64,000 nucleotides of DNA. It comes from Gracilimonas sp. GTDB lineage: Bacteria; Bacteroidota; Rhodothermia; Balneolales; Balneolaceae. This document shows positions 45,609-64,000 of this stretch, piece by piece. The notes below the pieces were generated by a model. It ran no database searches, was not told the DNA's origin, and saw only the letters and a list, made by a program, of their open reading frames with translations. The DNA lies in NCBI RefSeq assembly GCF_040218225.1, contig NZ_JAVJQO010000008.1, positions 620,001 through 684,000 of the forward strand. The letters run 5' to 3'. Positions within the stretch are counted from its first letter, which is position 1, and each line of letters opens with the position of its first letter. The position numbers and the translations under genes were made by a program.

Positions 45609-48600
45609 GTGATTAAATCCAAGATTCACATAAAAATTCTGTTCATCACCATATTTCTTTTTTGTATGGGTGGAATTGATGTATCTGCCCAAACCACAAA
45701 TTGGAATGGCTCTGTTAACAGCGACTGGAATAATGCTTCGAACTGGAGTAACGGCGTTCCCGGCCCGGGATATAGAGCAGTTATCACGAATTACTCCAAT
45801 AAGCCAATCCTTAATACTTCAGCAACGGTAAATACCCTTCAGCTCGGGAGTTACTACCCGGGTCCGGGAGTTACCTTTCTTACGGTGATATCAGGTGGAA
45901 ATTTAACGATCACCAATGAAATTGAATTCAATGGCAATGGAGGCTCTCTACACATTGACGGGGGAACGGTAAATCATACCGGAACCTCACTCGACTGGGG
46001 TTCCAATGATAATCGTTATGTAGAAATGACCAGCGGTAGTTTTACCACCAATGCAAATTTTTCGATTAATGGTGGAAATAAAACAACACAACCTGGCTTC
46101 TCGGTTGGCAGCGGAACAGCTACTTTTAATGGAAATCTTACCGTCAGCAGTTCGGGTAGCGGCAAATGGTTTGATGCCGGTTCTGGTGTTGTAAATGTAG
46201 AAGGTAACCTGAACATTCAGAATAGTGCATTATTTGAATTAGGCACAGCAACTTTGACTGTTGATGGAACAACAACCATTAACGGTACATTTGACGGTGA
46301 AGATGGAATGGCAACTTTTGAAGGACCAGCAAATGTTCAAAGTGGAGGCACATTAGAAAACGATTCCGGTACACTCGTATTTAATTCCACACTAGATGTG
46401 CAAGGTAATGCCTATGCTTATTTAGGATCGGGTACCGTAGAAATTAACAACGATGTACAAGTTCAAAGCTCCGGATATTTTTATGTGCAGGATGCTACCG
46501 TGAACATCAATGGTAATGCTGACTTTTCGAGCAACGGTAATCTATATGTTGATACTGGAACTATTAATGTTGCTGGCGACGCCTCCGTTACAAGTGGGGG
46601 TTCGATGTCGCTTGGGAGTGGTAATTTGGAGCTTTCCGGAGATTTTGAAGTCACCGGTGGCAGTAATTTTAATGCCGATTCCAGTACCGTAACCTTTAGT
46701 GGAGACAACACTCAAACCATCACCACCAATGGTAGCAATATCACTTTCAATAATGTCGTCGTCGATTCCGGAGCTACTTTCCAAACTGACGGGGGTTCTG
46801 AGAATGTAGTTACGGTTGAAGGTAACCTTACCGTTAATGAAGGTGGTTCTGTCAATGTACAGGACGATGACCAACTCGATATTCAGGGTGAAGTAAATGG
46901 TGATGGTTCAGATAACGTACAGAGCCCGGCCCCATTTGCCGTTTCTGCGGTAGCAACCGATGTAAACACCGTCATTGTTACTTTTAACAAGGCCATGGTC
47001 GAATCCTTGGCAGAGAATGTTTCCAATTATACCATAGAAAGGGTCAGCAACTCCAACTCGGTAACCGTAAACAGTGCTACTCTAAATACGGGAGGCAATA
47101 GTAAACAGGTTACATTGTCTATATCCACCATTCTTGAAGATGTGGAATACCGAATCATCATGAACAACCTTGAAAGCACTGACAACGGGGAATTATCTGA
47201 CAATCACATCAAGAGGTTTACCAAGGTAGGCCCCATTACTTTTTATAGCGTTACTTCCGGCAACTGGGCTACTGCAGGCACCTGGTCCAAAACCAGTCAT
47301 TCTGGTACTCCTTCTGCTTCTGACCATCCCGGAAATACAAATAATGCAACCGTAATTGTTGGTGATGGTGATGTAGTCACTATTTCAAGTTCCACAAGCA
47401 TTGAAAATCAAACTGCGGTTCAGGTGAAATCAGGATCGGTACTTCGTGTAGGTTCAGGTGGGGTCTTAACCACCGGATTAAAGACGATAACCGGAGCGGG
47501 TACTTTTGAAGTTACAACAGGAACCCTCAGAATAGGTTCACTTTCAGGTATTTCGTCTTCCGGGTCAACCGGAAATATTCAAACCACAACCCGTACATTC
47601 GGTACTTCAGGCAGTTACACGTACAATGGAAGCGGAGTACAAAATACAGGCAATGGTTTACCCGGAACGGTACAGAATTTAACGATCTCGAATAGCTCCG
47701 GAGTAACTTTATCAACCAATAACATTCAGGTTAGTGGTACCCTCTTTTTAACCAGTGGGACGTTCAACATTGGGTCCGGAAAAAATTTAATCGCAAACAC
47801 AAAATCCATTGGCAGCGGAGATCTCAAAATTGAGCGAACCATAACCGGTTCCAATGGCTGGCGATTACTTTCTTCTCCATTAGATACTGATTTTGATGAT
47901 CTGCTTGACAAAACCGTAACTCAGGGCTTTACAGGCGCCTATTATAGTACTGGGTCAAATCCTGGAGACACATTACAACCTAATGTGCTTTATTACGATG
48001 AAACCTATCCCGGTACGGATAATCAACGGTGGAGAGCCCCATCCAATGCTTCAAATTCTATTCCAGAAGGACTTGGGTTGTTCACCTATATCTTCGGGGA
48101 TATCGATGCTGACCCAAATTATAATGACGTTTTCCCACTGCCATTAACACTGGATGTTCAGGGACAAGAAAATGAAGGACCTGTTGATTTTGGTGTCACC
48201 TATACCACCTCTGCTGACTCAGGCTGGAATTTAGCAGGCAATCCCTATGCTGCCACTATCGATTGGGATAACGCCTCTTCCTGGACCAAAACAAATATCG
48301 ATCAAACCATCTACATATGGGATTATAGCAGCAACCAATTTTTAACCTGGAATGGATCTACAGGAGATTTAGGAAGTGGATTAATTGCTCCTTTCCAGGG
48401 GTTTTGGATTAAAGCTAATGCAATCACTCCTTCTCTTGTTGTTGAGGAAGATGCTAAAACAACGGGCGGTACCTATGTTGGCAAACTAAATTCAGCTAAC
48501 AACAAAGCTAACCACCCAATGTTTTCTCTGACGCTGGTTGATGATCAGAACAGGGAAGTTTCAGCTCATTTTATGTTTACTGAGTCGGCTAAAATTGGTA

Positions 48601-49301
48601 AAGATCCCTTAGATGGATACCGTTTAAATCCGTACTCCGGCATTACTGATTACATTGAATTATCCTCTGTTTCTTCCAGCGGAGATAAATATTCTATCAA
48701 TAACCTGCCTCGTAATTTTGGAACACCTATCGAAATCCCACTTCAGGTAGAAGCTTATGAAAATGGGTTTTCGATTTCTAAAAGTATGTACATGAAGCTT
48801 CAGAAATTTTCGAATATACCGGATGGTTGGACGATCACATTGATTGATAAAAAAACATCAACAGAAGTCAGCCTCAAAAATCAACCCTCGTATATATTTA
48901 CACACAAAGGTACTATGGGGAAACAAGCGGCAAATCAAAGTAGCTCTTTGAAACCAAAAATTCAGAGTAAGGCAGATCCCAAAAATGCTCGTTTTGTAAT
49001 ACGGATAGAACCGGGAGCAGATGCCAGCGACCTCCCTTCCGATTTTACCCTGAAACAAAATTATCCTAATCCCTTTAATCCTTCCACAAAAATTCAATTT
49101 GAACTACCGCTACAAGGCGTTGCAGAACTCTCGATTTTTGATATTCTCGGTAGAAAAGTAACAACCATTGTTGATTCTGAACTTCAGGCAGGAATACACA
49201 CGTTTACCTGGGACGCCTCTAACTTTTCAAGTGGTATTTATTTATATCGATTAGTCACAAACAATGGTGTTTTTACCAAAAAAATGACCTTGATTAAATA
49301 G
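45609..49301 (+). CDS. Large T9SS cargo protein with beta-helix-like repeats (1230 residues)
   Basis: Starts with GTG at 45609 on a signal peptide (ending DVSAQ). It opens with an NWNGSVNSDWNNASNW segment, then about residues 95-430 hold degenerate repeats of about 25 residues with the pattern 'G.l.v.G...i.sgg.l..gsGt..', probably a beta-helix. A Big_5/SbsA-like domain follows (about 440-540), then a second 'GNWATAGTWSK' segment (near 550), a conserved module starting GWRLLSSP (about 750-960), and the T9SS type A tail (NYPNPFNPSTKIQFEL ... KKMTLIK). It is predicted to be surface-exposed, adhesin-like. Confidence 0.88.
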   Translation: MIKSKIHIKILFITIFLFCMGGIDVSAQTTNWNGSVNSDWNNASNWSNGVPGPGYRAVITNYSNKPILNTSATVNTLQLGSYYPGPGVTFLTVISGGNLTITNEIEFNGNGGSLHIDGGTVNHTGTSLDWGSNDNRYVEMTSGSFTTNANFSINGGNKTTQPGFSVGSGTATFNGNLTVSSSGSGKWFDAGSGVVNVEGNLNIQNSALFELGTATLTVDGTTTINGTFDGEDGMATFEGPANVQSGGTLENDSGTLVFNSTLDVQGNAYAYLGSGTVEINNDVQVQSSGYFYVQDATVNINGNADFSSNGNLYVDTGTINVAGDASVTSGGSMSLGSGNLELSGDFEVTGGSNFNADSSTVTFSGDNTQTITTNGSNITFNNVVVDSGATFQTDGGSENVVTVEGNLTVNEGGSVNVQDDDQLDIQGEVNGDGSDNVQSPAPFAVSAVATDVNTVIVTFNKAMVESLAENVSNYTIERVSNSNSVTVNSATLNTGGNSKQVTLSISTILEDVEYRIIMNNLESTDNGELSDNHIKRFTKVGPITFYSVTSGNWATAGTWSKTSHSGTPSASDHPGNTNNATVIVGDGDVVTISSSTSIENQTAVQVKSGSVLRVGSGGVLTTGLKTITGAGTFEVTTGTLRIGSLSGISSSGSTGNIQTTTRTFGTSGSYTYNGSGVQNTGNGLPGTVQNLTISNSSGVTLSTNNIQVSGTLFLTSGTFNIGSGKNLIANTKSIGSGDLKIERTITGSNGWRLLSSPLDTDFDDLLDKTVTQGFTGAYYSTGSNPGDTLQPNVLYYDETYPGTDNQRWRAPSNASNSIPEGLGLFTYIFGDIDADPNYNDVFPLPLTLDVQGQENEGPVDFGVTYTTSADSGWNLAGNPYAATIDWDNASSWTKTNIDQTIYIWDYSSNQFLTWNGSTGDLGSGLIAPFQGFWIKANAITPSLVVEEDAKTTGGTYVGKLNSANNKANHPMFSLTLVDDQNREVSAHFMFTESAKIGKDPLDGYRLNPYSGITDYIELSSVSSSGDKYSINNLPRNFGTPIEIPLQVEAYENGFSISKSMYMKLQKFSNIPDGWTITLIDKKTSTEVSLKNQPSYIFTHKGTMGKQAANQSSSLKPKIQSKADPKNARFVIRIEPGADASDLPSDFTLKQNYPNPFNPSTKIQFELPLQGVAELSIFDILGRKVTTIVDSELQAGIHTFTWDASNFSSGIYLYRLVTNNGVFTKKMTLIK

Positions 49302-49414: not shown

Positions 49415-52400
49415 GTGAAAATCACCCAAAGCACACATATCGGACTATTGACCCTGCTGATTGCACTCATAAGTGTGGAAACTATTTCCGCGCAAGTTCC
49501 GGGGTATACCTTCCGTAAAAAATTTGCTGTTGATAATGCCCAGGTTTCAGGCTCTACAAATTTGACTGATTTTCCTGTACTTATCTCACTCACAGAAAAT
49601 GATTTCAGAACCACGGGTAATGGTGGGGGTGTTGAAAGCCCCAATGGATATGATATTGTATTCACTTCTGCAGATGGTTCTACCGTTCTTGATCATGAGC
49701 TGGAATCATACAATGCCTCAACCGGTGAAATCTTATTTTGGGTTCGCTTCCCTACCCTTAATGCCACGTCTGATACCGAATTCTTCGTTTACTATGGAAA
49801 TTCCAGCCAAACTACCGATCAATCTGTAAATACCACCTGGAATTCCGGTTATCAAATGGTTCTGCACCTGGATAGTGACCTGAGTGACGCAACTTCTAAT
49901 GGAAATAATGGTTCTACGAGTGGAACTTCTGTAATTCCAGGAATAATTGGTGACGGGCGTGATTTCAATGCCGGGAGCGGAAATGACATAATTACCATTC
50001 CAGATGACCCTTCCATTGAGATTACCGGAGATATTACTATTTCATTCTGGATGAATGGTTCCAATCTTAATTCTGTAGGCCCCGACTTGGTAACCAAAGG
50101 TGCTTACAACAGTTCTTATGCCGTTTATTACTTTAATAATATCACCGTTAACGATGACGGAACTGCCTTTGATGGTAGCGCCTTGAATGACGGACAAGAT
50201 TATTATGTCACTTTCACAAACAGCAGTACCAATGGCCGTACTATTTATATTGATGGAGCGCAGGATGTAACTAACGGAACCGCGTTCAACTTCACCCCAA
50301 ATGGAGACAACCTCACCCTTTCAAGCGGAGATTTTCAGTTTGACGGGATGATGGATGAAGTTCGGATTTCGAATGTTGCACGCTCGGCCGACTGGATTGC
50401 TACGGAATACAGCAACCAAAATGCGCCGGGAAGTTTTATCTCTGAGATACCTGATCCGCCTGTTCTTGCCGATATTGAATCTTCTCCACAGAACTTTTTT
50501 GCCGGGGGTTCTGAGGTTTTTATTACTTCAGCTATTACTGTTGACCATCCATTTACTTCTAATCTCTCAAGTGCTGAAATCGAAATCACCGGAAATTATA
50601 ATGCTTCTGAGGATGTACTCGACTTCACTGACCAGAATGGAATAACAGGCAGCTGGAATTCGGGAACAGGTATTCTATCACTTTCCGGGACGGCTACCTT
50701 AGCACAATACCAAGCTGCTTTAAGGGATGTTACCTATGAGAATACCAACGGTTCTACCCCTGACCAAAGCACCAGAACAATATCAGTAACCGTCAATGAT
50801 GGGTCAAACGACAGCAACACCCTCACAAGAGATCTCAATATAATCACTACCCTGACTGACCTATCGACTGATTTAGCCAATCCCGTTTTTCATTTTGATG
50901 CACAGGATGTAAATGGTGATTTAAATCTGGGGAATCAGCCTGGAGATGGTACCTCTGTCGCTTCCTGGGGAGACCGTTCAGATAATGCTGTGGGTTCCGG
51001 AACTGATCTTTCAGCAATAAATGGAACTGCTGCCCAACGTCCACTATTCAATTCAAACTATTTTGGTGAACGGGGTGGAATTCTTTGGGATGGAACCGAT
51101 GATAACCTTGATCCGCCAAACAACGCTATTTTAAATACAGCTAGTTATACAGAAAAATCTTTTGCCGTTGTTTTCAGAACCGGGGCATCAGTTACAGGGT
51201 TACAGGTAATTTACGAACAAGGTGGTGGTACCCGGGGGTACCAGATTAGTATTAAAGATGGTAATGCGTACGCTTTCGTATGGAATAACAACGAATGGGG
51301 CGTCGGGAATCAATACAAATCAATTGATTTAGGAGTAGTCCAACCCAATGAGAGTTATATATTGATTGCGAGCCATGATGCGACAGCCGGTGCGCTAGTC
51401 AATCGTACCTGGTCAGCAAGCATAAACGGTGGTACTGCCATTACTTTGTCCAATACTGATGTTCAGCAAGCTCATAGTGGCGGTGCCATCATTGGTGAAG
51501 AAAACGGAACCCGCGACCCGGTGACAACAGCAAACAACCCAGCAGGCAATAACAATTTTAACGGATACATCGGCGAGTTTTTATCCTGGAATACAGCCCT
51601 TAATGGCGGACAGATGGCCAGTGTGTACGACTACCTCTGCGATAAATGGTGTAATGAACCTCCTGTCCTGGCTTCAATTGAAATGACAGACCTTGATTAT
51701 ACAGAAGGTGATTCACCAACTTCTGTCTCCTCCTCACTAACTGTTTCAGATAGTGATAATACTATTCTTGAGGGAGCCACCGTAACCATTTCTTCAAATT
51801 TTGAGACCTCCGAAGACGTTCTGGATTTCACTCCTGTCGGAAATATTGGCGGAAGCTATAATTCAACAACGGGTGAACTAACACTTTCAGGAACTGATTC
51901 ACCAGCTAACTATCAAACTGTTCTTCGTTCGGTTACTTACGAAAATACGAACACCGTCAATCCATCCACAGCATTAAGAACCATCGATTTTGAAGTGGAA
52001 GATTGGGATGATGTAAGCAACACGGCCTCCCGTGATATAAATGTAATTGCTGTAAATAGTACTCCTTCTCTTTCCGGTATTTCAGGACCTGCTTTAACAT
52101 ACAATGAAGGAAGCGGGGCTGTAAATGGTAGTGCCGCATTTACGGTGGCTATTTCAGATGCAGATGACACCAATATGGAAAGTGCCACCATTGCCATCAC
52201 AAATAATTATACGCTTGGGGAAGACGAACTTGGCTTTCCGAATCAGCTTGGAATTACCGGAAGCTGGAACTCTACAACGGGCATTTTGACCCTGACTGGT
52301 TCTGCATCCCTGGCTGATTATCAGACGGCACTTGAGGCTGTAACTTACGAAAACCTGAGTGCTGATCCGGTTGAGATTACCCGGACTATTTCATTTACCG

Positions 52401-55400
52401 TTAATGATGGAGCGAGTAACAGCAATACCGAATCCAGAGATTTAGATGTGGTAGCTGCTAACTCAGCGCCGGTGCTTTCCGGTATCGAATCCTCGGCTCT
52501 GAATTATGATAATGCAGCTATTCAAATAACGTCTACCCTACAAGTATCTGACCCGGATGACACTCAACTCGACAGTGCCTTCGTGTTGATTACTCAAAAT
52601 TTCAAACCCGCCGAAGATTCCCTTTTATATTCGGAGATTTTTGGAATTACCGGGGATTTCGATGATCAAACAGGACGATTAAAACTGGAAGGAACTACTT
52701 CTTTAAGTGATTATCAGACAGCCCTGAGAACCGTTGAATACAAAAACTTTGCCACCATACCTACCGGACCCGAACGAGAAATCAGTTTTGTAGCTCACGA
52801 CGGAGCACTAGCCAGTGACACAGTGAAACGCACAATTGAAGTGAATGCGGTAGAAGCTATTAACGGATTGGAAGTTTGGCTGCGCGCAGATGCCGGAATT
52901 GTAACCAGCGGCAGTGAAGTTGTGACCTGGCAGGATCAAAGTGGAAATGGAAATGATTATACCGGAACCGCAGATGCCGGAACCCGGCCTACATTTGTAA
53001 GCAGTTCAAGCCTGCTTAATAATCAGCCCTCTATTAACTTTGCCGGTAACGGGGATCACTTTGCTGATACTGATGGAGAGAATTATATCAATGGATCAAC
53101 CGAGTTTACCATCTTTTTGGTTTTGAAATCAGATCAGACCAATACTGACCGTGGATTGTTTATTGCAGAAACACCCGTTTCTCAAGATAAGACATTAACC
53201 ATTCGTTATGATGCAGCCGGAGCTAATACCGGCGGTGCCTTTACCAATGTAGTAAAGGCAGGGATACTGGGAGATGATCCCGACAACCAAATTGAGAGTT
53301 TTACTGATATCCAGACAACTAATGGGCAGATTATCAGCTATCAGTGGCAAAGTGGCAATACCTATGATATTTTTATAGATGGTATTCTGAATAACCCCAG
53401 TTCGATTGGCCCGCCTCCAACAGGTACTATTAGCAATGCTACCACAGCAATTTTAGGTAAAGGGGGGAAAGATGATCCCGATACCAACAACCAAAGCTGG
53501 GATGGTGAGATCGCAGAGTTTATTTATTATGGCCGGCTTCTCACACCATCCGAGCGGGAAAATGTAGAAGATTACCTCTCAGAGAAATACACGCTTTCAA
53601 TCCGAAAAATTACGGCGGCAGAAAACGGTGAAAATATTTCTGCTGATGACGCAAATACCTCCTACACCTCCCTCACGGGGCCTATTATCAAAGAAGGTTT
53701 TGCCGGAGAACTATCCGCAAGCGGAACTTTTGTACTCAATGCACCAACTGGTTTTGAATGGAATACAGGAGCAACTCCATCCGTATCTACTTCAGCGGTT
53801 TACGGAGGTACAACAACTCTTGCTGTTTCATATACGAGTATTACTTCTTCTCAAGTTACTTTTACGGTTAATACTGCTTCAACTTCAAATCCGGGTGAGA
53901 TTGATATTAGCGGACTTCAAATTCGCCCTACCACCGGAGCATTACCCAATACAGGCAACATCACCAATACGGGTACTACAGGACTTGGTGGAGGAACTAA
54001 TTATGGTTCGCTATCTATGGTTGCAGGTGCTTTGGACAGCCTTGTAATTACTCAGCAGCCATCATCTACAAATGTAAATACGGCTATCACACCAGCCGTT
54101 CGTGTACAACTTACCGACCAGTTCGGGAATAGTGTGAAGCAAGCAGGAGTATCGGTTAACATGGCTTTAACTTCCGGAACGGGATCATTATCGGGGACCA
54201 CCAGTCGTTTGACAAACTCTTTGGGAATAGCTGATTTTTCAGATCTCGAAATTGATGATGTAGGCACAAAACAACTCACAGCTACAAGTTCTGGCCTTGA
54301 TAATGCCGTAAGTTCAAACTTCAGTATTGTAAATGCCGGCGTACTTACAGGATTTAAAGTTGAACGCGTGCCTTCCGGAAATATCAGCCCAAAAATAGCC
54401 GGACAAAATTTCAACATAAAAATTACTGCCATTGATGGTTCTGGGACAACTGTAACTACTTTTTCGGGAACCACGGTTGTAACTTCTTCTTGTGATATGG
54501 GGTTAGGACAAGGTACTACATCCAGTTTCAGTTTAGGAGTTCTGTCCTCCCTTACTGTTAACATTACCAGTGTCGGTAATTGTACAATTACGGCAACCAA
54601 TTCCTCAGGCTCCGAAACCGGGGTAAGTAATTCATTTGCTGTATCAGCGGGCGCAGCTGATGAGTCCGAAACCACTATCTCTGCTTCTCCCACTGTAATT
54701 CTAAATGATGGAGCCAGCACTTCTACGATTACGGTTCAAGCCAAAGATGCTTTTGGAAATAACGTTACAAGCGGAGGTGCTACCGTAGTATTAAACACTG
54801 ATGAGGGTTCAATTGGCAGTGTTACTGATAATTCGAATGGCACCTATTCGGCCACGCTTACATCCTCCACGGGAACAGTTGTTGCAACGATAACCGGTAC
54901 TTTGAATGGAAATAGTATCAGTGATAATGCCCTGGTAGAGTTTGCCTCCTTCAGTCATATCTGGGAAAGTCAGCTCGGTTCTGTTGCTGATGCCTCCAAT
55001 TATTTTGATCCTGACAACTGGAACGTTGGTTCTGTACCGAATGCAGCCTCAGTTGTACTGATTCCTGCGAGTCCTGCTGTTGGTAATGAGTTTCCTGTTG
55101 TTAATGTAACCGATACAGAAATTGCTGCCCTTTCCATCGAGGCTAGCGCTGAACTCAACATATCAGGTGGTGTTAACTTTATCGTCTCAGGTGATGTTAC
55201 CGGAAACGGGGAACTACTGGGAAGTAATAATGACTCTCTTACCATTGGTGGTGATCTGAATATTCCGAATTTCACCCTAGGTAATATCATATTTAATGGA
55301 AGCAGCGACCAAACTATTCAAAGTCCACATTCTTTTGTAAACGTTGAGGTTGACAATCCCGGAACAGTAGAAATCACAAACAATTTCACTGTAACTGGTA

Positions 55401-56989
55401 TTCTCACTATGACCGATGGCGAATTACTCGTACCAAGCGGCCTAAACCTGATCGCCAATACACAAGCATATGGAACAGGTGTTCTGCGGTTCCAGAGAAA
55501 AATTTCAGGAGTCAGAGGCTGGAGAATGCTGGCATCGCCGGTAAACTCAACCGTCGGTGACTTCCTTGACGGCACCCTTACCCAGGGTTATACGGGTGCA
55601 ACGTACAGTACAGGCTCAGATCCCGGTGATACTCTTCAGCCTAACGTAATGTGGTATCTTGAAGATTATGATATTAATGAAGAAGGCTTACCAGCCACTG
55701 ATAACGACCGATTAAGAGCCCCTTCAAATAGTACAAACTCTCTGGTGGCCGGAAGAGGTTACTGGGTTTACTTTTTCGGAAGCATTCCAGCTGACCCTCT
55801 GTATAATGATCCGCTTCCGGATACCCTGGATGTAGCCGGACAGGAATTTGGGTCTGGTGCAACTGAAGTAGATTTTGGTGTTACTTATACCCCTGAAGCC
55901 GATTCTGGATGGAACTTTGTAGGGAATCCGTTTGGAGCATCTATTAACTGGAATAATGCCGCAAACTGGACGAAGACAAATATTGAATCAACCATTTATA
56001 TTTGGGATCCGGCTGCCAATAGTGGAAATGGAGAATTCCTTACCTGGAATGGGTCAACAGGCTCTCTGGGTAGTGGTATCATCCCGGCCTTCCAGGGATT
56101 TTGGGTAAAAGCCAATGCCTCAAGTCCCGAACTGAAAGTTAAAAATGCAGCCAAAACCACGGGGGGTAACTTCCTCCGCAAAGAAGTTCCGGCACAGCTG
56201 CAAGAGTTTGAAAGTTCACCTCCTGTTTTGGAGCTCAAAGCAACTGGGAATGGGTTGGCAAAAGTAACCCATGTTATGCTAAGCCAGAATGGTACAGAAG
56301 GTAAAGACGATCAGGATGCATTGCGGCTTCTACCCTTCTCAGATTCACACATTGAATTTTATTCAACGCTGAGTAATGGTACAGAGCTTGTGATCAATAA
56401 CCGACCAGCCAATTTCAGCCACCGCCAAAATGTTCCCCTGCATTTCGAGTCTTACATTAATGGACAAGTTGCAGCTGGTAGTTACACCCTTAGCTGGCCC
56501 GGACTTAGAAATGTACCTGAGGAATGGTTATTAATCTTGTTTGACCATGAGACCGGACAGGAAATTAATCTCAGAGAGCAGGAAAATTATGTTTTCAGCT
56601 ACAATTCAAAGAAAAAACTAAAGCAGGCTCAGCCTACAAACGGGGCTCCTTCCCTGAAGAAAAACAAATCTTCCGCAAGATTCCTCTTGAGAATTACCAC
56701 TGAGGAAATTGAGGCTAATATCCCTGAAGAAGTTTACTTATATCAAAACTATCCGAACCCGTTTAATCCAACTACCACTATTCCATTTGGACTAACTGAA
56801 GAGTCGGATGTGACACTTGAAGTTTTTGACATTCTGGGAAGAAAAGTTCAAACCCTGGTTTCTGAGACACTTCCGGCAGGAAACTATAACATCCCTTTCC
56901 AGGCGGGCAGACTAGCGAGCGGGGTTTATTTATATCGTATCCTAACGAACCAAAAAGTTCTGACTAATAAAATGGTGCTGATTAAATAA
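49415..56989 (+). CDS. Giant multidomain T9SS cargo protein (2524 residues)
   Basis: Starts with GTG at 49415, with a signal peptide ending SAQ. In order: DUF2341 (about 30-150), LamG (150-335), cadherin-like repeat 1 (350-478), LamG-like (478-745), cadherin-like repeats 2-4 (748-1147), LamG-like (1148-1398), an unassigned beta domain (to 1540), invasin-like Big_1 domains (1540-1640 and 1748-1843), an 'NWNVGSVPN' segment (near 1860), the GWRMLASP module (2033-2252) and the T9SS type A tail (2440-2524). It is probably a surface adhesin or carbohydrate-binding protein. Partner and ligand are unknown. Confidence 0.88.
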   Translation: MKITQSTHIGLLTLLIALISVETISAQVPGYTFRKKFAVDNAQVSGSTNLTDFPVLISLTENDFRTTGNGGGVESPNGYDIVFTSADGSTVLDHELESYNASTGEILFWVRFPTLNATSDTEFFVYYGNSSQTTDQSVNTTWNSGYQMVLHLDSDLSDATSNGNNGSTSGTSVIPGIIGDGRDFNAGSGNDIITIPDDPSIEITGDITISFWMNGSNLNSVGPDLVTKGAYNSSYAVYYFNNITVNDDGTAFDGSALNDGQDYYVTFTNSSTNGRTIYIDGAQDVTNGTAFNFTPNGDNLTLSSGDFQFDGMMDEVRISNVARSADWIATEYSNQNAPGSFISEIPDPPVLADIESSPQNFFAGGSEVFITSAITVDHPFTSNLSSAEIEITGNYNASEDVLDFTDQNGITGSWNSGTGILSLSGTATLAQYQAALRDVTYENTNGSTPDQSTRTISVTVNDGSNDSNTLTRDLNIITTLTDLSTDLANPVFHFDAQDVNGDLNLGNQPGDGTSVASWGDRSDNAVGSGTDLSAINGTAAQRPLFNSNYFGERGGILWDGTDDNLDPPNNAILNTASYTEKSFAVVFRTGASVTGLQVIYEQGGGTRGYQISIKDGNAYAFVWNNNEWGVGNQYKSIDLGVVQPNESYILIASHDATAGALVNRTWSASINGGTAITLSNTDVQQAHSGGAIIGEENGTRDPVTTANNPAGNNNFNGYIGEFLSWNTALNGGQMASVYDYLCDKWCNEPPVLASIEMTDLDYTEGDSPTSVSSSLTVSDSDNTILEGATVTISSNFETSEDVLDFTPVGNIGGSYNSTTGELTLSGTDSPANYQTVLRSVTYENTNTVNPSTALRTIDFEVEDWDDVSNTASRDINVIAVNSTPSLSGISGPALTYNEGSGAVNGSAAFTVAISDADDTNMESATIAITNNYTLGEDELGFPNQLGITGSWNSTTGILTLTGSASLADYQTALEAVTYENLSADPVEITRTISFTVNDGASNSNTESRDLDVVAANSAPVLSGIESSALNYDNAAIQITSTLQVSDPDDTQLDSAFVLITQNFKPAEDSLLYSEIFGITGDFDDQTGRLKLEGTTSLSDYQTALRTVEYKNFATIPTGPEREISFVAHDGALASDTVKRTIEVNAVEAINGLEVWLRADAGIVTSGSEVVTWQDQSGNGNDYTGTADAGTRPTFVSSSSLLNNQPSINFAGNGDHFADTDGENYINGSTEFTIFLVLKSDQTNTDRGLFIAETPVSQDKTLTIRYDAAGANTGGAFTNVVKAGILGDDPDNQIESFTDIQTTNGQIISYQWQSGNTYDIFIDGILNNPSSIGPPPTGTISNATTAILGKGGKDDPDTNNQSWDGEIAEFIYYGRLLTPSERENVEDYLSEKYTLSIRKITAAENGENISADDANTSYTSLTGPIIKEGFAGELSASGTFVLNAPTGFEWNTGATPSVSTSAVYGGTTTLAVSYTSITSSQVTFTVNTASTSNPGEIDISGLQIRPTTGALPNTGNITNTGTTGLGGGTNYGSLSMVAGALDSLVITQQPSSTNVNTAITPAVRVQLTDQFGNSVKQAGVSVNMALTSGTGSLSGTTSRLTNSLGIADFSDLEIDDVGTKQLTATSSGLDNAVSSNFSIVNAGVLTGFKVERVPSGNISPKIAGQNFNIKITAIDGSGTTVTTFSGTTVVTSSCDMGLGQGTTSSFSLGVLSSLTVNITSVGNCTITATNSSGSETGVSNSFAVSAGAADESETTISASPTVILNDGASTSTITVQAKDAFGNNVTSGGATVVLNTDEGSIGSVTDNSNGTYSATLTSSTGTVVATITGTLNGNSISDNALVEFASFSHIWESQLGSVADASNYFDPDNWNVGSVPNAASVVLIPASPAVGNEFPVVNVTDTEIAALSIEASAELNISGGVNFIVSGDVTGNGELLGSNNDSLTIGGDLNIPNFTLGNIIFNGSSDQTIQSPHSFVNVEVDNPGTVEITNNFTVTGILTMTDGELLVPSGLNLIANTQAYGTGVLRFQRKISGVRGWRMLASPVNSTVGDFLDGTLTQGYTGATYSTGSDPGDTLQPNVMWYLEDYDINEEGLPATDNDRLRAPSNSTNSLVAGRGYWVYFFGSIPADPLYNDPLPDTLDVAGQEFGSGATEVDFGVTYTPEADSGWNFVGNPFGASINWNNAANWTKTNIESTIYIWDPAANSGNGEFLTWNGSTGSLGSGIIPAFQGFWVKANASSPELKVKNAAKTTGGNFLRKEVPAQLQEFESSPPVLELKATGNGLAKVTHVMLSQNGTEGKDDQDALRLLPFSDSHIEFYSTLSNGTELVINNRPANFSHRQNVPLHFESYINGQVAAGSYTLSWPGLRNVPEEWLLILFDHETGQEINLREQENYVFSYNSKKKLKQAQPTNGAPSLKKNKSSARFLLRITTEEIEANIPEEVYLYQNYPNPFNPTTTIPFGLTEESDVTLEVFDILGRKVQTLVSETLPAGNYNIPFQAGRLASGVYLYRILTNQKVLTNKMVLIK

Positions 56990-57276: not shown

Positions 57277-57729
57277 ATGACTGACTATTCAGATATTATT
57301 TACCTCGGTGCTGCAATGGTAGTTTTTTCATTGCTTACAATGAACACATCCCGAAGTTTTCAGGTAACCATAGATACCATGGTAAGGTCTGAATTGGAAT
57401 ATAGAGCCATTTCGGCTGCTCAGGAAGAAATTGACGCTATCCGCTGGGTACAGGCCAGATATAAAAGTCAGGATCCTTTCAAATCATCCAACAGTCAATA
57501 TTTATATGATGACAATCCTATACAGCGTACCTTTAAATATGGTGTAGACGAGGAGTATTCAGAAACATTCACCATTTACAGGAAAGCTGAAGAAAGCGAT
57601 GATTGTGACTTATTGGATTCTACCACGCAGCGTTGTTATGAAATTACTATTACCGTTCAGAATAATTCTCTGGACCCTCCGATTACAGTAACTCAAAAAC
57701 TCATCAGAACCTTAACATTTAACAGCTAA
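57277..57729 (+). CDS. Pilin-like protein 1 (hydrophobic N-helix, one Cys pair)
   Basis: A 150-residue protein. After seven polar residues comes a hydrophobic helix (about 8-22), then an amphipathic helix (SELEYRAISAAQEEIDAIRW), as in pilins and pseudopilins. There is no prepilin-peptidase site (no G|FxxxE). The C-terminal part has exactly two cysteines (CDLLDSTTQRC) and ends in a beta strand. It is first of three consecutive genes of similar layout, with only 5 bases to the next. Function inferred only: minor structural subunit of a surface filament or envelope complex. Confidence 0.6.
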   Translation: MTDYSDIIYLGAAMVVFSLLTMNTSRSFQVTIDTMVRSELEYRAISAAQEEIDAIRWVQARYKSQDPFKSSNSQYLYDDNPIQRTFKYGVDEEYSETFTIYRKAEESDDCDLLDSTTQRCYEITITVQNNSLDPPITVTQKLIRTLTFNS

Positions 57730-57734
57730 CGGCC

Positions 57735-58355
57735 ATGAATATAGGTATTGTTACAAGTTATGTTATTGGAGGTTTTATGCTGATTTCGATTCTTGCATTT
57801 AATATCAGCTTAAATACAACCAGCCAGGAGACCACCATATCTACTATCAATCAGGAAAAAAGAGACAACTTGGTACAGTTGCTTTCCTGTGACTTCAATG
57901 GCTTAGGTTATTCAGATGATGTTTTTAATAATGACCCTATACAAGTAAGCGAGGATGATGAAATTGAATTCAGAACCTCCCCTGCTTGTGTTGACGGAGG
58001 TAATGATACTTCTGGTGAATTAGTAACACTTTACGCCAACTCTTCTAATCTGGCAACATCCACCACGAACCCGAATGACTTTTATTTGTACCGCGAAGAC
58101 AAAAATGGAACCTCCCGTTTCCTGGTTACTCATTTTGAACTGGTTTACTTTCGAAAAAATATTGTTAGCGGAGATTGGGATGAGGTTGCCAATCCAGCTT
58201 CACTTTTATCTCAAAGAGAAATAAAGATAAGAGTTGAGATCATGATCGAATCAGAAGAACCTATTCGTATTAGTCCACAAGGGGTATATATATATCACCG
58301 AACCGCATGGACCAGAGAATTTATCCCCAACATTATGAATCACCCCTGGAATTAA
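57735..58355 (+). CDS. Pilin-like protein 2
   Basis: A 206-residue protein with an N-terminal hydrophobic helix (about 4-26, TSYVIGGFMLISILAF) and a following polar helix (QETTISTINQEKRDNLVQLL). Like its neighbours it has exactly two cysteines (SCDFN near 51 and PACVDG near 84). The rest is beta-rich. No prepilin-peptidase site is visible. It ends 12 bases before the DUF4900-like gene, whose start has GGAGAG upstream. Confidence 0.6.
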   Translation: MNIGIVTSYVIGGFMLISILAFNISLNTTSQETTISTINQEKRDNLVQLLSCDFNGLGYSDDVFNNDPIQVSEDDEIEFRTSPACVDGGNDTSGELVTLYANSSNLATSTTNPNDFYLYREDKNGTSRFLVTHFELVYFRKNIVSGDWDEVANPASLLSQREIKIRVEIMIESEEPIRISPQGVYIYHRTAWTREFIPNIMNHPWN

Positions 58356-58367
58356 AAGGAGAGTATT

Positions 58368-59684
58368 ATGGGAAGAGCAATGCTATTTCTTGTTAGTGGT
58401 TTAGTTATCATTTCGGGCATTATCCAAATGGCTAACACCAATCGTACTGAAGTTCTGCCTCAGCGCACCGCCATTCACTTTAATGAACAGCAAGCCAAAA
58501 ACGTAGCTTCAAGTCTTATTGACAATGCAATCCAGAATTTACTGGTAGATATGGAATGGTCTGATGAAATCTCAATGTCTACCGAAAGTGGCGCAACTGG
58601 CACTTTATATATGAGTCAACCTGATCCTGATGATGAGTTCCGGGTGCTGCTTACCAGTTTTGGAACATATGGAGGTTATCGGTCAGAGATAGAAGTTTTA
58701 ATGCAAAGAGATTCTTTTTCAAGATATTCGTACTTCACAGACTCAGAAACTTTCTCTCCACCAAATGATAATGTGAAAATTTGGTGGTGGAATAATGACC
58801 AGGTTACCGGACCGGTTCACACAAATGGAACATTTAGTATGTCTGGCTCTCCTACTTTTAATGGTTTTGTTTCCAGCCCTAATGACTGGATTGGATATAC
58901 CGGAGATGAAGATAGTAGTGACCCGGATGAACGTCATGGTAGTGATTCACCTAATTTTAATGGCGGAACCAATTTCAATCTTACCAAAGACAAAGAATTA
59001 CCAGGAACGGAACAAATTAACCTTCTGAAAAGTGAGGCTACCCTTACCTTTGACGAACATAGTGATGTTGAATTCTATGAGGATTTGTTAGGTGATGGCT
59101 ATGTAAAAGTAAAAGATGAAGATTGTAATGATATTCTTTTATGCTATGACCACTATAAACTTTCAAACTATGAAAACCCTGATGGCGGAGTAGTTATAAG
59201 TATTGATGGAAGAGCAAATGTAAAGGGAGATGTGAAAGGAAGAGTTACCCTGCATTCATCCACTAAAATAAATATCATGGGTGATATCCGATACGACACA
59301 AACCCATTGGTTGATTCTACTTCAACCGATTTATTAGGGTTGGTAAGTGAAGGAGACGTAATGATTGACGAAGATGCTCATGATGATGAAGGAAGCTACC
59401 ATTTAACTATCCATGCTTCCATTATGGCACTCGGAACTTCTTTTGAAGTTGAAAATTGGGGAGGTGGAAGCCCACGAGGAACCCTAAATCTTCTTGGTGG
59501 AATTATCCAGAAAAACAGGGGCCCGGTAGGTACTTTTAGTGGCAACAATGTTGCAACGGGCTATACCAAAAATTATATATATGACACCCGACTTCAGCAA
59601 ACAATCCCTCCTTCTTTTCCAAGAGAAAGTATCTTCTCATTGGTATACTGGAGAGATAAGCCTGTTATCAAAATTGACTCATAA
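58368..59684 (+). CDS. DUF4900-like, PilX-like envelope protein
   Basis: A 438-residue protein with an N-terminal hydrophobic helix (about 3-21) and a PilX-like polar helix (FNEQQAKNVASSLIDNAIQNL). The middle part (YSYFTDSETFSPP, TGPVHTNGTFSMSGSPTFNGFV near 155) resembles DUF4900, a family beside pilin-like genes. The second half is beta-helical (VVISIDGRANVKGDVKGRVTL) with the only two cysteines in CNDILLC. It is probably the largest or tip-like subunit of the three. Confidence 0.65.
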   Translation: MGRAMLFLVSGLVIISGIIQMANTNRTEVLPQRTAIHFNEQQAKNVASSLIDNAIQNLLVDMEWSDEISMSTESGATGTLYMSQPDPDDEFRVLLTSFGTYGGYRSEIEVLMQRDSFSRYSYFTDSETFSPPNDNVKIWWWNNDQVTGPVHTNGTFSMSGSPTFNGFVSSPNDWIGYTGDEDSSDPDERHGSDSPNFNGGTNFNLTKDKELPGTEQINLLKSEATLTFDEHSDVEFYEDLLGDGYVKVKDEDCNDILLCYDHYKLSNYENPDGGVVISIDGRANVKGDVKGRVTLHSSTKINIMGDIRYDTNPLVDSTSTDLLGLVSEGDVMIDEDAHDDEGSYHLTIHASIMALGTSFEVENWGGGSPRGTLNLLGGIIQKNRGPVGTFSGNNVATGYTKNYIYDTRLQQTIPPSFPRESIFSLVYWRDKPVIKIDS

Positions 59685-60315: not shown

Positions 60316-60813
60316 ATGAGATATTTTCTTTTAGCAATCTTTCTATTGGTGTCATCTCCTTTCATAGCAGCTCAGGATAATAATGGTATATCCGCACAGG
60401 TAAATGTAAGTGCAGAAATCATACAGTCCATTGAGCTGATTACGGTAAACTCTATGCGCTTTGGAAATGCAAACCCTGGCCAACGAGAAATTTATGTAAA
60501 TCCGATCAACAGTCTTAATGCCGGGTTTATGATTGCTGTTGGGACTCCGGATGCCGAGTTCCGTCTCAATTATTTACCTGAAAGAGAACTAACTCAAATT
60601 GATGGCAATGCTACTCTTACTTTCACTTATGAAATCTCAGGTAATCCCGAGGAGAACCAGTCCACCTCGGAACTGCTAGAACTTGACAACAGAAACATAC
60701 AATTTAATAGTGAAGGCCGATATTACATCTGGGTAGGTGGTAGAGTGAATCTTGAAAATGCTGCACCCGGTAATTATGAAGGTGACTTTACTATTGAAAT
60801 AGACTACATATGA
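60316..60813 (+). CDS. DUF4402-like secreted structural protein 1
   Basis: A 165-residue protein with a Sec signal peptide (ending IAAQ). The mature domain has the DUF4402 outline: an early VNSMRFGNANPG strand and the C-terminal signature YYIWVGGRVNLENAAPGNYEGDFTIEIDYI (split over positions 136-165). DUF4402 proteins resemble Csu-type pilus subunits. The TGA stop overlaps the next ATG (ATGA), so translation is coupled to gene 2. Confidence 0.7.
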   Translation: MRYFLLAIFLLVSSPFIAAQDNNGISAQVNVSAEIIQSIELITVNSMRFGNANPGQREIYVNPINSLNAGFMIAVGTPDAEFRLNYLPERELTQIDGNATLTFTYEISGNPEENQSTSELLELDNRNIQFNSEGRYYIWVGGRVNLENAAPGNYEGDFTIEIDYI

Positions 60814-61463
60814 TCCCTAGATCACATAGAAAAACATTGGATTTCAAGCCTTTCAAAAAGAAGGGTTTTAGGCGTTCTATGTACATGGTGATATTTGGCA
60901 TCCTTTGTTTAACCAATTGGATAACCCTTTCTGCTCAGGAAATTAATTTTGGAGATTTCAGTAGCAAATACGCCGTTTCGCTGTCTGAATTAAATCCAGC
61001 GGAAGATTTGAGCTTTGGGATGGTCGTACAAAATGAAGGGCTAAAAAGTATCGACCTGATTGACTCAAAAGTTTTAATTATTGAAGGGGTAAAATACCTG
61101 GATGTGATCGTTGACATAACAGCAGATAACTATTTATATCTTGATGATGATATTGCTTGCAATGGTACCAACTCAAATTGTATCCCTTTTACTATTCAGG
61201 CAGCCTATGCGAATCGTGGTAATAATGATACTAATCAAGCAGTTCTTATGCAGGTTGCTTCAAATGTAGCAAGTGCCCAGTTTCCAATTGAAGCACGGGG
61301 TAATCGCCCACCCGGCCCGCCCCCTACTCCGGTTTATGAAGGCTATAATCCAGCTCTGTATAATGAAACCGCATATATCTATGTATATGGTTCTCTGAAT
61401 GTTGGAAATATAGACGCCGGCAGCTATTCAGGTAATATTACAATTACCATTTCTTATGACTAA
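60810..61463 (+). CDS. DUF4402-like secreted structural protein 2
   Basis: A 217-residue protein. A positively charged lead of about 22 residues precedes the signal peptide (ending LSAQ); an ATG at 60879 would give a normal-length signal but would lose the ATGA coupling. The mature part has the FGDFSSKYAVSL/LSFGMVVQNEG start, a single cysteine pair (CNGTNSNC), a Pro-rich insert (PPGPPPTP) and the tail YIYVYGSLNVGNIDAGSYSG. It overlaps gene 3 by 8 bases. Confidence 0.68.
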   Translation: MIPRSHRKTLDFKPFKKKGFRRSMYMVIFGILCLTNWITLSAQEINFGDFSSKYAVSLSELNPAEDLSFGMVVQNEGLKSIDLIDSKVLIIEGVKYLDVIVDITADNYLYLDDDIACNGTNSNCIPFTIQAAYANRGNNDTNQAVLMQVASNVASAQFPIEARGNRPPGPPPTPVYEGYNPALYNETAYIYVYGSLNVGNIDAGSYSGNITITISYD

Positions 61464-61977
61464 ACGATTTGTTTACATACTGCTGCTAGTTATTAGCCTA
61501 TCCCCTATCACAAAAGCCCAGTTTATTAATCTTCAACTTAAGATTGAACCTGAATTAAGTGCAACTGTTGAGCAGGATTTAGATTTTGGAACCTTAGTAA
61601 CCAATTCCGGAAGAACTGAGATTCAGTTGGGTGATGTAAATATGGGGGTATTTAGCATTCGGGCTTTTCATACTCAAAATGTATACCTCAATTTGCAGTA
61701 TCCTGAGGTACTCAGAAATGAAAACCCGGCAATTAGTGACGAAATCCCTCTTCAACTAAACATGTCTTATAATAACACCGGAAATAATAATGCTATTAAT
61801 TCTGCCCCACTTACTGCAAATAGCGGATTTATCTCGATCCACGATAACACCCAGCTGGAAAACCGCAACGACATCTGGAAACAAATGTACATCTATGTAT
61901 ATGGAGCGATTGAAGTAGGAAATATTCCCAATGGTGTTTATACCGGTGAAGTAGTCTTAAGTGTAGATTACGATTAA
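61456..61977 (+). CDS. DUF4402-like secreted structural protein 3
   Basis: A 173-residue protein with a signal peptide ending TKAQ. It has the same DLDFGTLVTNSG opening and the tail MYIYVYGAIEVGNIPNGVYTG ending VDYD (signature at about residues 144-173). It carries no cysteine, unlike gene 2. Its last 19 bases are repeated exactly at 62423-62441. Confidence 0.7.
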   Translation: MTKRFVYILLLVISLSPITKAQFINLQLKIEPELSATVEQDLDFGTLVTNSGRTEIQLGDVNMGVFSIRAFHTQNVYLNLQYPEVLRNENPAISDEIPLQLNMSYNNTGNNNAINSAPLTANSGFISIHDNTQLENRNDIWKQMYIYVYGAIEVGNIPNGVYTGEVVLSVDYD

Positions 61978-62682
61978 TTTATTGCGAGATACCTCGGACT
62001 TAATGTATAGTACTACCTTATCAGCTTGAAGCAACCTGCCTTTCTCCTATACACCAACAATACGATGCCGTTCACGACTCGCCTGTTTACTTTAATACAT
62101 CCCATCATTGGCTGACAAATCATGCTAAAGTTACAAAGGGCGCTGCTGCACAAAGATTAGCAGCGAATTCACCATCCCATTTGAACCTTAATGGATAGGA
62201 TTACCGGATTTCCTTGATTACCCCAAATCCATCCTTACTATCCACTAATCAATTAAATCATGGTTCGAAACCCAGATTTTCTCCTGCCCCTTACAAGCAT
62301 TAACCACAAAAAAGGTCACTATTCCATTATTGATGGGAAAAGCTAGAAAATGAGTATTGATTAGAATCTCAATCCGATTCATAGAGAATGTTCACGTTTC
62401 TACCGGTATTAAACAGCAATGCAAGTGTAGATTACGATTAAATCTGCATTCCTAATCTTTTCGTATAGTTATTCAGATCTGAACATTAAAGAAATCTAAA
62501 TATAAATCTGAGTGTGCTTACTTATTTTTGTACCGTAAAATTATCATCTAGGACAATGATTACATGGTTTCAGCTCAAAAAGTTAGGACGTTTTAATTAA
62601 GAGTATCTAACTAGGAAGGCTTTCAGAAGATCAATAATTTTCTTTCAGAAATTAAACAAACACAAAACTCAATCTCACGATT
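61978..62682. other. 705-base gap inside the DUF4402 cluster
   Basis: No open frame longer than about 20 codons fits a gene. The stretch contains the decayed DUF4402 end at 62395-62441. A TATTTTTG at 62523-62530 matches the Bacteroidota -7 box TAnnTTTG, about 150 bases before the next ATG, but no -33 TTG is found at the usual distance. A relic of a lost gene plus the promoter region of the next gene is the simplest reading. Confidence 0.5.
62395..62441 (+). pseudogene. Decayed 3' end of a DUF4402-like gene
   Basis: GTTTCTACCGGT (62396-62407) matches GTTTATACCGGT near 61936-61947 at 11 of 12 bases. After a stretch of unlike sequence, 62423-62441 repeats exactly the last 19 bases, including the stop, of the gene ending at 61977. 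Frame is lost between the two. It is best read as the remains of a fourth tandem copy. Confidence 0.6.
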
Positions 62683-63186
62683 ATGAAAACTTTAAAAACT
62701 CTTTTATCAGTATTCGCGATAGCGGCTGTTTTTTCAACAGGCACTTATGCTCAGCAAAACATTAATGCTACTGCTACTGTAGTTGATGCTATTGCTTTTG
62801 GTACTCACCAGGATCTTGCTTTTGGTACTTTAGCATCTGGCGATACTAAAACAATTAGTGCCGACTCTTCATCTGCAGGTTATTTCGAAATTACCAGCTA
62901 CGCTCAAAGTAATACTATTGTAGCCGGTCTTTCTTACACTGACTTTACTGGAGGATCTGCACCTTCTTTTACAGAATCTTCTACCGTTAAGTATAGTTTC
63001 AGTGCAAGTGCTGCTCCAAATAATTCTAATCCTACACTTGGATCTGATGCAACTGGTGGTAACATCGCAACAAATACTGAGACAGATAACCTTTATATTT
63101 ATATCGGTGGTTCTGTAGATGCAACTGGTGCAAGTGCTGGAACATATACTGATGCTCAAATTACACTAACTGTAGAGTATCTTTAA
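62683..63186 (+). CDS. DUF4402-like secreted protein 4, candidate major subunit
   Basis: A 167-residue protein with a Sec signal peptide (ending TYAQ). The mature part is small-residue rich, with HQDLAFGTLASGDTKTI at the N-side and LYIYIGGSVDATGASAGTYTD near the end, closing in TLTVEYL. No cysteines. It has its own long leader and a strong terminator, unlike the coupled genes before it, so it may be expressed separately and at high level as the main structural subunit. That role is inferred. Confidence 0.68.
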   Translation: MKTLKTLLSVFAIAAVFSTGTYAQQNINATATVVDAIAFGTHQDLAFGTLASGDTKTISADSSSAGYFEITSYAQSNTIVAGLSYTDFTGGSAPSFTESSTVKYSFSASAAPNNSNPTLGSDATGGNIATNTETDNLYIYIGGSVDATGASAGTYTDAQITLTVEYL

Positions 63187-63208
63187 GACTTAGATAATCA
63201 AACTTTTC

Positions 63209-63239
63209 AAGCCATGAAGTTTTCTTCATGGCTTTTTTT
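63209..63239 (+). terminator. Strong intrinsic terminator after DUF4402-like gene 4
   Basis: AAGCCATGAAG (63209-63219) and CTTCATGGCTT (63224-63234) form a perfect 11-bp stem with a TTTT loop, followed by a T-run. It isolates the gene at 62683-63186 from the chaperone gene that follows. Confidence 0.92.
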
Positions 63240-63348
63240 ATAACGGTCCACGACGTAGAAATAACCTGAAAAAAACTTAGTGTAAAAGATTTAATTATTT
63301 TATCTATTAAATGCTAAATTGAGAAAGCCACTAAGTAAAAAAAAGTTT

Positions 63349-64000
63349 ATGAAAAACTTATTCAAGCACATAGCCACTACCTCTGTTTTTTTAGTGCTGT
63401 CAATTGTTATATCTGCCGAATTGATGGCCCAAATAACTATTGCCCCTACAAATCTGTTTATCGATTCAAGGAATAAGTTTGGTAGCTATTTAATCATAAA
63501 TAATTCCAGTGAACCTTATGAAATATCTATAGATTTCTTATTTGGTTACAGTGAAGCAGATGAAAATGGGAACAGATATCTTGTTTATGACGATTCTGTT
63601 ACAGCTGAAAAGTATTCTATTGTAGAGTGGATACGTGCGTTTCCCCAAAATCTCACTTTAGCTCCTAACCAAAGGCAAACTGTAAGGCTAAGAATTAATC
63701 CACCCAGCGATATTGAAAATGGTACGTACTGGGCTAGAATAAGAACAACTGCTACACCGCGATCAACAGCTATAGAAGATCAAAGTAATCAGGGTATATC
63801 TGCAAATATTGGATTAAGAATTCAGCAAATAACAGGTATTTTTTATAAAAATGGGACGGTTTCTACTGACATAAACATAAAAGATATTACTACTGAACAA
63901 AATAATGGCCAGATTGATGTTTTTTATGGCTTAGAAAGAACAGGAAACTCACCCTTCATAGGCAGTATTGGCGTAAAAATGTATGACTCAAACAACCGGG
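63349..64000 (+). CDS. PapD-like periplasmic pilus chaperone (3' end beyond window)
   Basis: Open from the ATG at 63349 (MKNLFKHIATTSV) to the window edge; 217 residues are visible. The signal peptide ends at LMAQ. The mature part begins ITIAPTNLFIDSRNKFGSYL and continues with a NSSEPYEISIDFLF strand and APNQRQTVRLRINPP, the typical first-domain layout of PapD-like chaperones (a beta edge and a 'L.P.q.q.vRl' strand). A second domain starts near 170. It should fold and cap the DUF4402-like subunits encoded upstream. The usual basic anchoring residues cannot be confirmed by eye. Confidence 0.72.
   Translation, partial: MKNLFKHIATTSVFLVLSIVISAELMAQITIAPTNLFIDSRNKFGSYLIINNSSEPYEISIDFLFGYSEADENGNRYLVYDDSVTAEKYSIVEWIRAFPQNLTLAPNQRQTVRLRINPPSDIENGTYWARIRTTATPRSTAIEDQSNQGISANIGLRIQQITGIFYKNGTVSTDINIKDITTEQNNGQIDVFYGLERTGNSPFIGSIGVKMYDSNNR

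Follow-up and report, generated by a model that had tools for sequence, protein, structure and literature searches.

The locus considered here raises a simple question: can proteins that look like type IV pilins, and yet begin directly at their hydrophobic helix, belong to a pilus at all, and if so, to which one? Three such genes are found one after the other in the analysed stretch of Gracilimonas sp. DNA (64,000 nucleotides, hereafter the window):

P1, 57277..57729, + strand: 150 aa, putative leaderless minor pilin, GspI/PilV-like from its position and motif, with an acid at residue 6.
P2, 57735..58355, + strand: 206 aa, putative leaderless minor pilin with a predicted GspJ/PilW fold.
P3, 58368..59684, + strand: 438 aa, putative leaderless minor pilin, GspK/PilX-like from its position, with a large beta-type domain and a weak DUF4900 match.

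The gaps are of 5 bases between P1 and P2 and of 12 bases between P2 and P3: the coordinates and the spacing given in an earlier reading of this DNA, made from the sequence alone, are both borne out. In all three proteins the hydrophobic stretch starts within the first 3-7 residues, and the class III signal is absent.

The best evidence on the nature of the trio comes from P2, modelled by AlphaFold2 from 15 sequences (the window and loci from named genomes). The model, with a mean pLDDT of 85.7, features a helix running unbroken from residue 3 to residue 55 (53 residues), followed by a beta domain. By Foldseek alone no match is found at E <= 0.001: the best one, at E 0.044, is a Thermus type IV-like pilin, and the list contains many phage coat proteins. 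When VIA-align was run on the Foldseek candidates, the nine best entries were all GspJ/EpsJ/XcpW pseudopilins or TTHA1219, with Z scores of 9.5-10.8, the next score being 3.5; 126-169 residues are aligned with these entries, with an rmsd of 2.9-4.4. According to the model, P2 is of the GspJ/PilW type, a long N-terminal helix on a GspJ-type beta domain, as expected if the trio is pseudopilin-like. For P1, the helix (residues 4-64) is predicted with confidence, while the globular domain is poorly modelled (mean pLDDT 61.9). The layout of a helix followed by a beta domain, which the sequence-only reading had attributed to these proteins, is therefore supported by the model for P2, and for P1 as far as the helix is concerned, its globular part being of low confidence. 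P3 matches DUF4900 at E 1.1e-4, under the cut-off; within its family, DUF4900 is matched by 15 out of 28 members and Bactofilin by 5 out of 28.

Searches at the sequence level are less informative. In Pfam, P2 finds no pilin family, and of 25 P1 proteins a single one has a marginal hit to a type IV pilin model (E 0.065); Pfam and NCBIfam searches of P1 and P2 gave nothing useful. The PDB sequence search returned no match for the P1 or P3 profile, and only weak, unrelated matches for that of P2. Profiles were also compared by hhalign with those of canonical pseudopilins encoded in four genomes of this phylum, with probabilities of 2-26 percent: P1 against I-like (P 0.018) and P2 against J-like proteins (P 0.025) are weak and non-significant, P3 against K-like proteins is weak as well (P 7.5e-4, probability 26 percent), and the major pilin described below has P 0.01. 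The matching P1 and P2 pairs score better than the crossed ones (P 0.083 and 0.3). These links are weak; P1 and P3 are assigned from gene order and linkage. In classical type IVa pili the minor pilin genes are ordered PilV-PilW-PilX, and GspK is the largest of the I-J-K proteins, as P3 is in the trio.

A candidate machine for these proteins is encoded in the same genome, far from the trio:

Machinery operon, L034 4296-13948: PilC (PF00482), PilB (PF00437), a cNMP-binding protein, PilT (PF00437), a PilM-like protein, PilO (PF04350) and a secretin (PF00263).

PilB, PilC, PilT, PilO and the secretin, the set by which a type IV pilus is recognized, are encoded together. The best solved relatives of PilB and PilT are T4P PilB (E 4.5e-100) and PilT (E 1.7e-69), respectively; PilB has intact Walker motifs, an A and a B-like one, along with two CxxC pairs. 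The PilM-like protein has no match above cut-off. Of the genes singled out by the sequence-only reading as diagnostic, pilB is present, the secretin is nearest to PilQ (NCBIfam, E 2.9e-26), and a prepilin peptidase was not detected. The cyclic-nucleotide-binding gene lies within the pilus operon of many families (L034:10240-10746 and equivalents), which suggests a nucleotide control of the machine.

In other families trio and machine are found together, the full operon reading pilA-pilC-pilB-P1-cNMP-P2-P3-pilT-pilM-pilO-pilQ. In L041, from a relative further away, the order is two short MGQQQ proteins-PilC-PilB-P1-cNMP-P2-P3-PilT-PilM-like-PilO-secretin. In the named-genome set, where 80 of 438 confirmed loci were kept, 38 of the 80 contain the segment from PilB through PilT, and in 12 of these 38, including that of Candidatus Chrysopegis kryptomonas, P1-P2-P3 lie in between; in three KSB1 loci the operon is present and a P1 follows the secretin. 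The locus sets partly overlap, and each count is given within one set.

A major pilin is available too. Proteins of about 120-160 residues with a MGQQQLLL-type start are found in 39 of the 57 relatives, and three of them in the genome under study. Their mean pairwise identity, over 30 proteins, is 0.78 in residues 1-28 and 0.32 in the rest. Among solved chains their profile finds Geobacter PilA as the best match (E 0.0058); weaker matches, with E over 0.1, include Thermus PilA5 and further pilins amid unrelated chains. The trio goes with a complete type IV pilus machine in which the major pilins, as well, have no leader; P1, P2 and P3 are very probably the minor pilins of this type IVa-like pilus, none of whose subunits carries a leader peptide.

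The cassette was also followed outside the operon. P3 relatives are present in 30 of the 57 relatives; the order P1-P2-P3, whose conservation had been regarded as decisive in the sequence-only reading, is kept in many of them and is seen again in the majority of 19 cassette loci, where two cassettes often lie side by side. Besides the one in the window, the genome contains one further P3 cassette, on contig C4. A third, divergent cassette, leaderless too, was observed in other loci (L107:15996-18313, L048:16360-18827, L149:6435-7349): in L107 and L048 its order is P3-P1-P2, and its proteins start, for example, with MGKY, with MSTSQ or MGQV, and with MAFQPDLVVPP or MIQADLIVPP. A fourth conserved gene accompanies the cassette type of the window:

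P4, 59720..60106, + strand: conserved protein of 128 aa with a signal-peptide-like start, directly downstream of this cassette type.

P4 has 14 family members, counting cassette loci and window, and no match in Pfam. Two very large secreted proteins are encoded just upstream of the trio (45609-49301 and 49415-56989): the former matches a T9SS sorting domain, and the latter, by eye, ends in a similar stretch. Downstream, 60316-63999 contains DUF4402 genes, followed by a protein which by eye is chaperone-like and has no Pfam match; in relatives, the DUF4402 and chaperone-like genes are followed by a SPOR-domain protein of about 1,180 residues (L038:8143-11682). The DUF4402, chaperone-like and SPOR genes possibly form a separate fimbrial system.

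This neighbourhood is the main argument for a different explanation, by which the trio would be an inner-membrane envelope complex derived from minor pilins, not forming a filament and serving, for example, as a scaffold for T9SS-type proteins or for the DUF4402 genes. Within the family of the organism, the cassette indeed lies away from the pilus operon and beside secreted proteins, large T9SS-type ones adjoining it in 7 out of 19 loci and DUF4402 genes in 10 out of 19. In other families, however, the same trio is found inside the pilus operon; moreover, the genome under study keeps all the motors and three major-pilin-like genes, and the helix next to the start is conserved in each protein. 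Such a complex is therefore unlikely. The same observations bear on the functional link with the DUF4402 cluster that the sequence-only reading had put forward: DUF4402 genes are neighbours in 10 of the 19 loci and no requirement, since in other families the trio sits in the pilus operon with no DUF4402 genes between its parts. If the trio consists of minor pilins, the cassettes beside secreted or DUF4402 genes may be seen as tip cassettes, encoded along with other surface genes.

The absence of leaders was evaluated by looking upstream of the starts. For P1, P2 and P3 of the window, an in-frame stop is found 5 codons before each Met, and no ATG, GTG or TTG lies between stop and Met; therefore no leader is hidden by a miscalled start. 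The same test was applied to the families, after dropping the rows without a start motif (8 for P1, 2 for P2, 3 for P3, 4 for the major pilin): an upstream in-frame stop is present in all cases (39/39 for P1, 44/44 for P2, 46/46 for P3, 115/115 for the major pilin), and an alternative upstream start is absent in 36/39, 42/44, 45/46 and 113/115, respectively. The sequence-only reading had noticed that the G|FxxxE class III site is missing in all three proteins; the start test agrees, leaving no room for a leader. The PF07963 profile was not found in this genome, and was found in 6 of the 57 relatives.

No prepilin peptidase is found in the genome by PF01478, which is positive in 12 out of 14 control genomes and in 4 of the 57 relatives. 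A profile built on 16 peptidases of the phylum, divergent short ones included, retrieves the same four enzymes (E about 1e-61 to 1e-63) and has best matches of E 0.001-0.04 in seven other genomes; in the genome under study, it has no match at E <= 1. Among 345 genomes of the phylum, a leaderless pilin is present in 119, PilC in 163 and PF01478 in 43. Of the 119 genomes with a leaderless pilin, 118 have PilC, 105 have no detectable peptidase and 14 have one. All of these 14 have at least four PF00482 domain matches, corresponding to two PilC genes or more, vs 11 of the 104 with PilC and without peptidase (p 8.5e-12, counts read by eye). Four of the 14 were inspected, and each has a separate class III pilin locus, with 12 pilins flagged in all, whose leaders are of 7-34 residues; in three of the four, the peptidase and major pilin genes are direct neighbours, and in the fourth they are about 165 bases apart.

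The sensitivity of the peptidase test is imperfect, as indicated by 16 PilC genomes which have neither a leaderless pilin nor a detected peptidase, and by two leaderless-pilin genomes (G018 and G213) where no peptidase was detected despite the presence of class III pilins, in a K-I-J-PilC block (L260:2113-5349, L261:6031-9352); in these two, the enzyme may be lost, unassembled or divergent. A further explanation holds that these are type IV pilins of the ordinary kind, and that their leader or peptidase escaped notice because of wrong starts or of a divergent peptidase cutting a leader of one or two residues. It may draw on the divergent short peptidases which do exist in the phylum, two of them under the Pfam cut-off, and on the Gly at residue 2 of the major pilin, close to the classical cleavage Gly. 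It is very unlikely: the upstream stops leave no room, known leaders are of 6-26 residues according to the accessible text of a review (PMC4471445), the profile including divergent enzymes finds none in this genome, and residue 2 of P2 is Asn, not Gly, in 37 of 46 proteins. The unprocessed pseudopilin-like complex suggested by the sequence-only reading is well supported by the predicted GspJ fold of P2, the conserved gene order and the absence of a detectable peptidase.

Where the proteins begin, relative to mature pilins, may be read from the alignments. Residue 4 of the major pilin query is placed opposite residue 1 of the chains 2m7g, 8qqj, 8pfb and 6xxe, which we take to begin at mature residue 1: the start codon therefore precedes the N-terminus of classical mature pilins by about three residues. 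For P2, the first aligned residues, P2 against entry, are 29-31, 32-33, 34-35 and 38-39, and 1-2 with the full-length XcpW model. If the numbering of GspJ-type entries is that of the mature proteins, as we assume, these near-equal positions put Met1 of the modelled P2 at the mature GspJ start. A Sec signal peptide cut by signal peptidase I, yielding periplasmic-soluble or secreted proteins, would fit a run of about 20 hydrophobic residues behind a short N-terminus and the AxA-like stretch soon after it in the major pilin, but is highly improbable, given that conservation in the major pilin is highest over its first 28 residues, that the P2 helix has no break, that the register of both alignments equals that of mature pilins, and that the major pilin and P1 have no basic n-region.

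Glu at mature position 5 is nearly invariable in classical bacterial pilins, as stated in the accessible part of the same review (PMC4471445). Of 47 P1 proteins, 36 have D or E at residue 6 and 5 have it at residue 5. Removal of the initiator Met is permitted when residue 2 is S, T, G, V or A, as it is in 31 of the 47; once Met is removed, residue 6 of P1 becomes position 5, and the MTDYSD start of the window protein fits this arrangement. Residues 2-8 of P3 contain no acid (49 out of 49), and GspK likewise lacks one close to its N-terminus. In the major pilin, too, no acid is present at position 5 or elsewhere near the start.

The sequence-only reading had also reported one cysteine pair per protein. 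This is correct for the window, where each protein has exactly two cysteines (P1 110/120, P2 52/85, P3 253/259), and does not hold beyond close relatives, to which the pair is confined: exactly two cysteines are found in 3/47 P1, 2/46 P2 and 15/49 P3 proteins, and the three proteins of the paralogous cassette on contig C4 (L035) have none. As most homologues lack it, the pair was rejected as a defining trait of the family.

Taken over several classes of the phylum, as well as KSB1, Kryptonia and Marinimicrobia-like genomes, the data probably describe a branch of type IV filaments without proteolytic maturation, featuring pilins which start at the mature position, an acid equivalent to Glu5 in P1, standard machines and interchangeable tips.

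Among known systems, the type IVa pilus shares with this one the motors, the platform protein, PilO, the secretin, a major pilin and the minor-pilin trio; here, in contrast, the leader is absent on all subunits, as is the class III signal, and the peptidase is undetected. T2SS GspI-GspJ-GspK share three adjacent genes and the GspJ fold predicted for P2; they differ in that here there is no leader, PilT is present, the best matches of PilB are pilus ATPases, and the P3 domain is of a DUF4900/bactofilin-like beta type, unlike GspK. The 'T2SS' of Bacteroidetes (Cytophaga), which branches with T4aP and has been flagged as a possible separate type, is a candidate likeness: it occurs in the wider phylum, is T4aP-derived and has a divergent major pilin, according to the accessible text (PMC6668835). 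The mitochondrial T2SS is GspO-free as far as known; its GspG is extended at the N-terminus by a long segment, which a different protease probably removes, and minor pilins are missing (PMC10128026), whereas in the present system there is no extension and minor pilins are kept.

In the accessible passages of the reviews, a class III leader and a dedicated peptidase define type IV filaments, being universal except in Nanoarchaeota (PMC4471445), and peptidase activity is essential in bacteria and archaea (PMC10128026); MSH loci seemingly borrow a peptidase. A search of the open-licence PMC literature, outside which preprints and most subscription papers fall, yielded nothing on type IV pilins without a leader, on type IV pili of Balneolota or Kryptonia that do without a peptidase, or on DUF4900; for type IV systems lacking a peptidase, the sole match (PMC9563170) concerns Nanohaloarchaeota. 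The system described here is best understood as one that works like a type IV pilus, in which the class III signal and the peptidase typical of classical members are not found.

Pilus assembly would then proceed without proteolysis. Translation would start exactly at the N-terminus which in a classical pilin is made by the peptidase, or no more than about three residues from it; the subunits would enter the inner membrane, globular domain on the periplasmic side, and could be assembled immediately, needing at most the loss of the initiator Met. The shared machine (PilB, PilC, PilM-like protein, PilO and secretin) would extend a filament of the MGQQQLLL-type protein, which the P1-P2-P3 complex may prime and tip, the large beta domain of P3 being the part likely exposed at the tip, and which PilT may retract. 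The two cassettes, in the window and on contig C4, would serve one machine, with interchangeable tips.

If this is true, cleavage and N-methylation are dispensable for assembly in a widespread lineage which keeps motors and scaffold, and scans requiring PilD or a GFxxxE motif miss these pili. Such a lineage would also provide a natural test system for the role of the leader, be it in topology, timing or membrane extraction.
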